Source: an uncultured Clostridia bacterium (lineage in GTDB: Bacteria > Bacillota_I > Bacilli_A > RF39 > UBA660). Taken from it: a stretch of DNA of 35,498 nucleotides. The position numbers and the translations under genes are program-made. The notes under the pieces are model-generated. The model had not been told where the DNA came from. It searched no databases and saw nothing but the letters and a program-made list of their open reading frames with translations. Numbering within the stretch: position 1 is the first letter of the stretch; each line of letters opens with the position of its first letter. Positions 8,310-34,637 of this stretch are shown in pieces. The stretch lies in contig CAMNBS010000003.1 in the NCBI GenBank assembly GCA_946533175.1, forward strand, positions 1 through 35,498, in the 5' to 3' direction.

Positions 8310-9155
8310 TTATTTTTCATTATCTAAAATGTTAATTTTTTCTTCTATAAATTGATTCATAGCATCTCGCCCGCTCATAATAATTTTTCTTGGATCATAA
8401 ACACTAGGATTATTCTTTATAAAATCTCTTACTGCTTCCGCCCATACATATTGCATATCCGAGTTAACATTAATTTTAGTAATACCACAAGATATAGCCT
8501 GTCTTAAAATATCATGTGATAAACCACTACCACCATGCATAACTAAAGGAATACTAGTATTATCTCTTAATTTTTGAATCAAATCAAAGTCAATATGTAA
8601 TTCACCTTTATAAATACCATGAACTGTACCAATGGCAGGAGCTAGTGAATCTATTTCAGTTTCGCGAATAAAGCGAAGACATTCATCATAATCAGCTAGT
8701 AATATTGTACTATTAACATCATCTTCAATACCACCAACATGTCCTAACTCAGCTTCCGTTGTAACATTATGTTCCTTAGCATATAAAACAACTTTTTTGG
8801 TTTCTTTAATGTTTTCTTCCAAAGACTTTTTCGAGGCATCAATCATAACTGAAGTAAATCCAGCATCAATAGCCATTTTACAACTTTCATAACTTGATCC
8901 ATGATCAAGATGAAGACAAACATCATTTTCAATATGCAATTCATCAATCAAATTTCTAACAAGAGCTGATACAACACGGTATCCTCCCATATAATTAATA
9001 GCACCTTCACTTACCCCAAGAATAACAGGTTTGTGCATAGCATTAGTTTTTTCTAAAATAATTCTTGCCCACTCTAAATTATTGATATTAAAGTGATAAA
9101 TAACACCCTTTTTTCTTCTTGCTTCTTCAAGCATTTTTTTTCCATTAACTAACAT
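8310..9155 (-). CDS. fba: Class II fructose-bisphosphate aldolase
   Basis: HLDHGSSYESCKMAIDAGFTSVMIDASK; AEAELGHVGG-type motif (TEAELGHVGGIEDD); LVMHGGSGLSHDILRQAISCGITKINVNSDMQ; start moved to ATG after AGGTGAAATT (track start 9212). Confidence 0.93.
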   Translation of the reverse strand: MLVNGKKMLEEARRKKGVIYHFNINNLEWARIILEKTNAMHKPVILGVSEGAINYMGGYRVVSALVRNLIDELHIENDVCLHLDHGSSYESCKMAIDAGFTSVMIDASKKSLEENIKETKKVVLYAKEHNVTTEAELGHVGGIEDDVNSTILLADYDECLRFIRETEIDSLAPAIGTVHGIYKGELHIDFDLIQKLRDNTSIPLVMHGGSGLSHDILRQAISCGITKINVNSDMQYVWAEAVRDFIKNNPSVYDPRKIIMSGRDAMNQFIEEKINILDNEK

Positions 9156-9198
9156 AATTTCACCTATTAACATCATAATACAAAATATTAATAATGTC

Positions 9199-9220
9199 AA
9201 AAAAAAGCACATAAGTGCTT
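9199..9220 (-). terminator. Rho-independent terminator of the 352-aa ORF
   Basis: Minus: AAGCAC-TTAT-GTGCTT followed by a T-tract; overlaps the stop codon. Confidence 0.65.
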
Positions 9221-10277
9221 ATTTTATATGATTATGAGAATCTAAGTTTTGCGTAATAACATTAAACTTATCCATTACTAAATCTAGTAATTGATCATAA
9301 GTATATTGTCGGTTATTAATTCTAAATGAATACTCATGAGTTGTTTCTAACATTGACTGTCCTAATTGAAATATAATATATTGAGCAAGTGGACTTAAAT
9401 CATTGAAACAAAAAGATGAACCATTATTAGTTATAGTAGTACCATTAAAAGTAAAGTCCAAAAAATCATCTAACATATTTCTAATATTACTTTTGGTTCG
9501 TGGTCTATTGTTACTATCATAAGCACCAAATACTATTTTATTACGTCTTTGGCAAAAATAATCGACAGCATTATCATCTATTGAGCCTTTAGTAAATATA
9601 CCATCAAAGGATAGAGCATGTTTCTCACCAGTTAAACTATTACCCATCAAAAAATCTGTTAATTCACCGGTATTAACAATTGTTGCTTCATTAATCATAC
9701 CTAATATTTCTTCAAATTCACTTTGACTATAAGAAGTACCTGTATTAAGACTTTGTGCAGAAGTAACTAAATTTAATGGTGCACCATAGTCTGGATCAGG
9801 ATTAGTATATTGTTCTTCTTGTCTTTGATTATTCTGTGCCATTTGTTTTGAACCACTACGACTAATAAAATGTCCGGCTGCAAAAGCTAAAACAGCTGCT
9901 GTAATAATAGCACCAACTCTACCACCAACACTTCGAAGATTAAATCCGTGTTTTTTTTCTTTTTCTTCACTAACTTCAACAGTATCTTCCTTTGGTAAAT
10001 CACGTACTATAAGAGCTTTAGAAGGACTAGATGATACCTTACTGTCCAACCCTAAAGACTTATTAATTATTTCTAGTAGCTCGTCCTTATGTTTTTCTAA
10101 TTCCTCTGGATGATCATAAAAATAATCTAATAAAACACCAAGTTTTGAAACTAAAACCTCTAATGCTTTAATTGTTTCATCTTCAGATAATTTATAAGAA
10201 CGATTATCCGCATCTTTAACAGTAATTATAGGAAAAAAATCACCTTTTTGAATTTCAATTTTTGTATACTTTGCCAT
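9219..10277 (-). CDS. Hypothetical bitopic membrane protein, no family recognised
   Basis: 352 aa, GGAGGGG RBS; charged N-terminal domain, one TM (VGAIITAAVLAFAAGHFI), C-terminal soluble domain. Confidence 0.85.
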   Translation of the reverse strand: MAKYTKIEIQKGDFFPIITVKDADNRSYKLSEDETIKALEVLVSKLGVLLDYFYDHPEELEKHKDELLEIINKSLGLDSKVSSSPSKALIVRDLPKEDTVEVSEEKEKKHGFNLRSVGGRVGAIITAAVLAFAAGHFISRSGSKQMAQNNQRQEEQYTNPDPDYGAPLNLVTSAQSLNTGTSYSQSEFEEILGMINEATIVNTGELTDFLMGNSLTGEKHALSFDGIFTKGSIDDNAVDYFCQRRNKIVFGAYDSNNRPRTKSNIRNMLDDFLDFTFNGTTITNNGSSFCFNDLSPLAQYIIFQLGQSMLETTHEYSFRINNRQYTYDQLLDLVMDKFNVITQNLDSHNHIK

Positions 10278-10305
10278 ATATTATATCCCCTCCAAATACA
10301 AAGAT

Positions 10306-10334
10306 ATTATACTACAGTATACAATAAATGTCAA
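10306..10334 (-). promoter_or_regulatory. Perfect-consensus sigma-A promoter of the 352-aa ORF with inverted repeat in the spacer
   Basis: Minus: TTGACA (10329-10334) - 17 nt - TATAAT (10306-10311); TATACT-GT-AGTATA inverted repeat overlaps spacer and -10. Confidence 0.85.
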
Positions 10335-10837
10335 TTTTTCAAAAGATCATACACTAAAGAATGATATTCTACATCATCAGTTATTTTATTATCGTTAATC
10401 ATACATAATGGTGGATATAATACACACCACCAATTATCACCTAATCCTTCTCCCAACGTAATTACAAGCGATTCATATTCACCTTCCTTATATACAACTC
10501 CTCGATAGGTTTTTTTAGGAAAATAGTTCATACCATAATGTAAAGTAAAATTTTTAGTTTTATTAGAAATCATCTCATTTATTATATCTAAATTATTTTT
10601 TATTTTCTCTCTTGCATCAGAAGTACTATTAAAATCTTTAACCATATCATAAAGATCATCTTCTATTTCTTCTTTTAATTTTTTCTTTTCATATAGATCT
10701 TTAATATTATTACTATTAGCAATAATACGCATACGAATAGCATCAGTTGGTATAATTATTTCTTCCTCTTTTTGATATACTAAAACACCAATAATAATAC
10801 TAATTAATAAAAATATTCCTTTTTTCAAATAAATCAC
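10331..10837 (-). CDS. spoIIR: Stage II sporulation protein R
   Basis: IRMRIIANSNNIKDLYEKKKLKEEIEDDL...GDNWWCVLYPPLC; ends in TGA; next to prmC-prfA as in Bacillus. Confidence 0.9.
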   Translation of the reverse strand: MIYLKKGIFLLISIIIGVLVYQKEEEIIIPTDAIRMRIIANSNNIKDLYEKKKLKEEIEDDLYDMVKDFNSTSDAREKIKNNLDIINEMISNKTKNFTLHYGMNYFPKKTYRGVVYKEGEYESLVITLGEGLGDNWWCVLYPPLCMINDNKITDDVEYHSLVYDLLKN

Positions 10838-24055: not shown

Positions 24056-24937
24056 TTATATAGGTAACGATTGCCTGTTATTAACTTTATTTTCTATATA
24101 TTCAAGATTATTAAATGATTTATTATTTTTTAATAGTTCCATTTGCTTTCTAGCAATGTTATTTAATCTAATAAGTCTTTCACTTTGCGTTATTTTCATT
24201 TCAATTAATTCAGCATTGATATTTTCCAGATTGTTTAAAATTACCAAATGAAGTAAATCTGTATAATCTCTAATATTTCCTTTATCTGCAATTTTAGGAT
24301 TACCTTCTCTCCATTCTTTAGCAGTCATACCAAATAAGGCAACATTTAAAACATCGGCTTCTTCTGCATAAACATATTTTTTTTGTTTTTCAGTTAGAGT
24401 TGGAACTATTATACTTTTAATAGCATCAGTATGAACTACATAACTAACTTTTGCTAATACTCTATTAGCATGCCAATCAATTTTCTTCTGATAGGCTTCA
24501 TTTTTCTTTAATCTTTGAAATTCTTGAATTACATATAGTTTAAATTCTGGGCTTAGCCAACTTGCAAACTCAAAAGCAATATCTGAATCAGCAAACGTTC
24601 CACCATCATATCTACCTGATTTTGATATAATTCCAATAGCATTCGTTTCTCTTATCCATTTTTGAGGCGACATTTTAAAAGTATTGCTTCCAGCTTCATT
24701 TTTAAACGTATCGAATTTGCCCCCTTTAAAATTTTCATTATGTATACTTTCCCATAATCCTAAATATGAAATTACTTCTTTGCTTCTCATCCAATCCCTA
24801 ATAGGAAGTCTTGGTTCATCATTATCTGCATATCTTGCTAAATCAGTTAGTGAAATATATTCTTTATTTTCAATTATTAAAACACCAATTTTACGGTCTT
24901 TTACTATAAATTCAGTTTTAATATTGTCTTTATTCAT
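24056..24937 (-). CDS. KilA-N domain-containing (phage-type DNA-binding) protein
   Basis: EYISLTDLARYAD...PIRDWMRSKEVISYLGLWES...NAIGIISKSGRYDGGTFADSDIAFEFASWLSPEFKLYVIQEFQRLK. Confidence 0.88.
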   Translation of the reverse strand: MNKDNIKTEFIVKDRKIGVLIIENKEYISLTDLARYADNDEPRLPIRDWMRSKEVISYLGLWESIHNENFKGGKFDTFKNEAGSNTFKMSPQKWIRETNAIGIISKSGRYDGGTFADSDIAFEFASWLSPEFKLYVIQEFQRLKKNEAYQKKIDWHANRVLAKVSYVVHTDAIKSIIVPTLTEKQKKYVYAEEADVLNVALFGMTAKEWREGNPKIADKGNIRDYTDLLHLVILNNLENINAELIEMKITQSERLIRLNNIARKQMELLKNNKSFNNLEYIENKVNNRQSLPI

Positions 24938-33833: not shown

Positions 33834-33862
33834 TAAAAAAAATCTTGATTTTCATCAAGATT
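33834..33862 (-). terminator. Terminator of the 260-aa TasA-like gene
   Basis: Minus: AATCTTGA-TGAAAA-TCAAGATT then T-tract. Confidence 0.7.
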
Positions 33863-34637
33863 GTGGTGTATCAAAAGCCTCAACACGAATTTTTAAGCTA
33901 TAATATGCATTTTTATATTCATTAGTAGTATAAACTTTCTTGTTTGCATCAACAGCTTTAGCCGGATATATTTTAGTCATTGTTCCTTCTTCCGTATTAT
34001 TCTTCATATAACGAAGAACGGTAACAGGATCTCCTGTAGTATCAGCAAGAGATGGATAACCTTCCATATTATTCTCCCTTTTAGTTGTAGATGATACCAA
34101 AACTTTATTTTCATCAACCCATAAATAAGCAGAATAAGTTTTAGTAGTACTATCTAATGTTCCTCTAACTAAACCAGTAGCAATCAAAGCTTTACCATCA
34201 GTAAAATTAAGATTAGCACCATTTCCAGAATAATAATTGTTTGTTATATAAAAACCATCACCATCACTAGGTGGAATAAACTTAAAAGACATAATTCCAT
34301 CATCAAGACGAGTTTTAGCACTATCTTCAGCGCCATATATAGCATAAACATTAAAAGTAACACCATTAGATATATTATTATGAGCTGTTATTGAAAAAGT
34401 TAACTTATAACTATCTGTAAGTTCATCTACTGATATAGGGCTATCATTCGTAATAAGAATACTTGTTCCATCAATATAATCAAAAGAAACATAACTTGTT
34501 TCAATAACATTATTATTCCCTGTCTTCGTAAATTGAAAAAAAGCATATGTAGTACCAATAACTACTAATCCAATTAAAAAAAGAACCAACAATATCAATA
34601 TATATTTCTTTTTATTTTTTTCTTCTGTCTTCTCCAT
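33855..34637 (-). CDS. TasA/camelysin-like secreted or anchored surface protein
   Basis: Basic N-terminus, TM, GTTYAFFQFTKTGNNNVIETSYVSFDY; C-terminal YYSLKIRVEAFDTPQS. Confidence 0.55.
   Translation of the reverse strand: MEKTEEKNKKKYILILLVLFLIGLVVIGTTYAFFQFTKTGNNNVIETSYVSFDYIDGTSILITNDSPISVDELTDSYKLTFSITAHNNISNGVTFNVYAIYGAEDSAKTRLDDGIMSFKFIPPSDGDGFYITNNYYSGNGANLNFTDGKALIATGLVRGTLDSTTKTYSAYLWVDENKVLVSSTTKRENNMEGYPSLADTTGDPVTVLRYMKNNTEEGTMTKIYPAKAVDANKKVYTTNEYKNAYYSLKIRVEAFDTPQS

Follow-up and report, generated by a model that had tools for sequence, protein, structure and literature searches.

Gene X, located between spoIIR and fba, encodes a bitopic membrane protein whose C-terminal domain is under purifying selection and confidently predicted to fold. 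It is best read as a member of a new family, restricted to its lineage and ordinary in architecture. On balance, we favor the view that X is a constitutively expressed, membrane-tethered outer domain, with a probable binding or organizing role within the wall or on the surface of the cell. The original prediction of a 352-residue protein between spoIIR and fba was correct: The open reading frame starts with ATG and occupies positions 9219–10277 on the minus strand of the window, i.e., the whole stretch of 35,498 nt that was analyzed. It is flanked on the same strand by spoIIR (10331–10837; Pfam Spore_II_R, E = 7.6e-31) and by fba, coding for class II fructose-bisphosphate aldolase (8310–9212; Pfam F_bP_aldolase, E = 2.3e-92). 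The gene is real, since orthologues are found at the same place in five of five genus members and dN/dS of the C-terminal domain is well below 1. Rfam gave no match anywhere in the window, and literature searches on the organism and on analogues yielded nothing useful.

Domain architecture and selection

X contains a single hydrophobic segment (residues 121–139; 9861–9917, minus strand), as seen in the hydropathy profile and mirrored by a helix at residues 123–140 in the AlphaFold2 model, in agreement with the one transmembrane helix expected. Together with a charge of +4 on the N-terminal side of this helix, the Thr/Pro-rich linkers that follow the membrane segment in most relatives make an N-in/C-out envelope protein, as originally predicted, the probable topology. 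Thr/Pro-rich segments are the expectation for a region that crosses the wall. In several relatives, the charges flanking the helix do not favor N-in.

The cytoplasmic part begins with a small module (residues 1–74; 10056–10277, minus strand), which AlphaFold2 models with low confidence as three strands and two helices. Its copy number among orthologues ranges from one to about four, the upper end being reached by tandem copies in the orthologue of genome G145. All tethered members of the family that we read retain the module, which may thus have a role. On the far side of the membrane, residues 167–352 (9222–9779, minus strand) form the predicted extracytoplasmic domain, which has a conserved family profile. 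It is composed of helices followed by two β-hairpins with a helix after each, in a model that reaches a pLDDT of 90.6 and a pTM of 0.88 and was built from ten sequences only. Across 16 aligned C-terminal domains, no column is invariant and just two residues, a Phe and a Gly, attain 90% conservation; hence, the domain has no conserved catalytic set.

That no family had been recognized for X holds in Pfam, NCBIfam, and PHROGs, none of which returned a match. PHROG 15511 is matched by X relatives, in most of them on the Thr/Pro linker and in one case extending into the C-terminal domain. A sequence-profile search of the PDB gave nothing below E = 0.09. The structural comparison proposed with the original prediction yielded a confidently predicted C-terminal domain without a significant counterpart, as Foldseek searches of the PDB (full-length and C-domain models) and of BFVD produced no match at E ≤ 0.001, the best being at ~0.3–0.8 with low probability.

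Selection was compared between the two ends of the protein. In the two closest orthologues (G092 and G147, the single genome pair compared), the C-terminal domain has a dN of 0.09 and a dS of 0.55 (dN/dS ~0.17), whereas the N-terminal part, linker included, has a dN of 0.44 and a dS of 0.58 (dN/dS ~0.77). For the whole gene, dN/dS amounts to 0.40 in this pair, compared with 0.25 for spoIIR, 0.16 for prmC, 0.13 for fba, and 0.06 for murA. In this pair, the C-terminal domain is under purifying selection and the cytoplasmic part is nearly unconstrained, which places the constrained function in the C-terminal domain, probably outside the membrane.

Proposed tethered layout and a signaling alternative

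In the model that we favor, X would be transcribed constitutively from a σA promoter and held in the membrane by its single transmembrane helix together with the small cytoplasmic module at the N terminus, with the inner module serving as a loosely constrained anchor. A variable, often Thr/Pro-rich linker would carry the helical domain of ~180 residues outside the membrane. This outer domain would do the work, most likely through a non-catalytic binding or structural function within the wall or on the cell surface. Anchor, disordered linker, and folded outer domain likewise make up the Gram-positive surface proteins and lipoproteins that are tethered by Thr/Pro linkers; unlike these, the outer domain of X has no catalogued family or solved fold (Pfam, NCBIfam, PHROGs, PDB, and BFVD).

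The main rival, drawn by analogy with RsgI-type anti-sigma factors, regards X as a transmembrane signal transducer, whose outer domain would sense a cue from the wall or the environment and whose cytoplasmic module would relay it to a regulator. RsgI-type proteins consist of a cytoplasmic N-terminal domain, a single transmembrane helix, a Thr/Pro-rich linker, and an outer domain. X has the same order of parts, in an orientation predicted from charge, and a distant match in G364 with a DnaJ domain on the inside suggests that other inner domains may attach. However, neither X (Pfam and NCBIfam) nor seven of its relatives (Pfam) contain an RsgI_N or other regulatory domain, and no sigma factor or regulator gene lies directly beside X, whose neighbors are spoIIR and fba. 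Moreover, conservation in the X family lies in the outer domain and constraint is lowest in the inner module, the opposite of what a conserved signaling partner would lead one to expect. We consider signal transduction by X unlikely.

The X family and its locus

A genus search matched X in five of five sampled genomes, all of which have the gene order spoIIR-X-fba-murA, with the contig of G145 stopping inside fba. Over the C-terminal domain, X shares 22–34% identity with the four genus orthologues; neighboring genes share 64–88%. Relatives adjoin fba in three further genera. By profile, the C-terminal domain is shared by proteins in g1, g66, g103, and g129, and profile searches added members in g103 and g129, mostly directly upstream of fba. 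This position is occupied by X in all five genus genomes and additionally in G065, G306, G103, G388, G438, G484, G450, and G129. G388 carries a tandem pair of members, one of two copies in G103 is not next to fba, and a paralogue in G223 (g103) lies in a different gene context. In a class-level search of 149 genomes, no X relative was found outside the bacterial family. X had been described as an orphan, which is true in that it belongs to no known family and wrong in that it is a member of a diverged one, present at the same locus in several genera. Profile matches in G121 and G355 were discarded as false, as they fall in ordinary enzymes. In G005 (L068, 1445–3860), two proteins are encoded upstream of fba, a secreted one and another that is anchored by a transmembrane helix and carries APTQ repeats; their layout is similar, yet profile comparison shows no relation to X.

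The X profile also weakly matches proteins with lipoprotein-type signals in G053 and G265 (E = 6e-5 and 8e-7), both of which adjoin queH-like genes; for the G053 protein, hhalign gives a probability of 41%. The G364 protein (L126, 829–2055) comprises a DnaJ domain, a transmembrane helix, and an outer domain possibly related to that of X (hhalign probability 69%). It thereby resembles X in having an inner domain and a membrane helix, and perhaps in its outer domain; it differs from X by the J domain, which X does not have. Mycoplasma TopJ was retrieved through its J domain only. The weak lipoprotein matches suggest that the anchor of the outer domain is interchangeable and fit with a location outside the membrane; both would follow if the proteins of G053, G265, and G364 are true relatives. 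Taken further, the outer domain might be a new fold-level family riding on exchangeable anchors across these gut Bacilli (a plain transmembrane module, a DnaJ-transmembrane module, or a lipoprotein), and in some species it could couple the surface to cytoplasmic Hsp70 via the J domain, an extension that we hold to be quite doubtful.

In most of the bacterial family, the gene of a 176-residue protein, identified as a putative mntP by its SMDAFSLS motif, and not X, lies between spoIIR and fba; in G065, the order is spoIIR-mntP-X-fba. The idea that X in place of mntP reflects mntP loss was rejected, since mntP (Pfam Mntp) is found elsewhere in all five genus genomes. The same comparison bears on a sporulation-linked protein that would work with the neighboring spoIIR. 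X adjoins spoIIR throughout the genus (5/5), with the −35 element of its promoter inside the spoIIR stop. However, this promoter is separate and of the σA type by consensus, most relatives that have spoIIR carry mntP and not X at this site, and the G223 paralogue and second G103 copy mentioned above are found elsewhere. A link to sporulation is improbable.

Elsewhere in the window, a stand-alone KilA-N domain protein (24056–24937; Pfam E = 1.7e-17) is encoded between prfB-like and lysS-like genes, and L063 harbors a similar protein near spoIIR. A 260-residue open reading frame at 33855–34637, with a membrane segment at its start and no Pfam match, may by eye be a TasA-like fiber protein.

Promoter, terminator, and inverted repeat

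X has its own promoter, predicted to be strong, a ribosome binding site, and a hairpin terminator, in line with the self-contained transcription unit that was proposed. The promoter (10306–10334, minus strand) agrees with TTGACA-N17-TATAAT at 12 of 12 positions, and the −35 element (10334–10329) shares bases with the TGA stop that closes spoIIR at 10331; both features had been read correctly. A short conserved leader, CTTTGTATTTGGAGGGG (10278–10305, minus strand), contains the expected GGAGGGG ribosome binding site. The 17-nt spacing, TATAAT, the placement of the −35 on the spoIIR stop, and the leader are kept or nearly so in the five genus genomes, two of which have TTGACT as −35. We infer constitutive transcription of the σA type, the σ factor being assigned by consensus only.

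Among 22 promoter-like sites in the region, a number that shows no excess over the 24.7 due to chance, that of X is the best. The draft genome (907 kb, about 66% complete) contains 14 perfect TTGACA-N17-TATAAT sites, compared with one for the reversed control pattern. Thus, the X promoter is unusually good, yet not unique. Perfect promoters do not form a special class, as the other 13 precede mixed genes, including apparent rplM, hrcA, sortase, and tRNA-modification genes as read from their sequences. A second bitopic protein of the same genome (L150; G000, C23) also has a perfect promoter of this kind.

At the other end, the predicted intrinsic terminator is present as a hairpin with a T run (9205–9220, minus strand; −8 kcal/mol, z = −3.3). 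Its T run is followed without a gap by TTGACA, the −35 element of the fba promoter (TTTTTTGACA; TTTTTTTTGACA, window 9169–9220). All five genus members and G065 retain a hairpin, although its sequence differs. The fusion of the T run to the fba −35 persists in the five genus members with their differing hairpins; in G065, an A interrupts the T run ahead of TTGAC.

A perfect 6-2-6 inverted repeat, TATACT-GT-AGTATA (TATACTGTAGTATA; 10308–10321), covers the spacer and the −10 as described, its right half being largely the −10 itself. In promoters simulated with fixed −35 and −10 hexamers and the remainder drawn from the base-neighbor frequencies of the window, arms of at least 6 occur in 16%, and 11% have one that overlaps the −10. 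The alignment of the five genus promoters, a comparison suggested originally, shows that the repeat is not conserved: The left arm is absent in the four other orthologues, which retain just the half that belongs to the −10. In the draft genome (about 66% complete), the palindrome has no second copy; an autoregulated or single-target repressor needs no further operator copies. Given the lost left arm, the single genomic copy, and the 11–16% expected by chance, the operator of a repressor-controlled envelope protein, for which the perfection and position of the repeat had spoken, is very improbable, and the repeat is most likely a chance palindrome. The conditional expression once envisaged for X is likewise not supported, as the promoter is conserved in 5/5 genomes without the palindrome.

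The X promoter illustrates that orthologue comparison can dismiss a striking promoter palindrome. The practical weight of the X family is modest; its members, from uncultured bacteria of the gut and rumen, define a lineage-restricted family whose outer domain is predicted with confidence.
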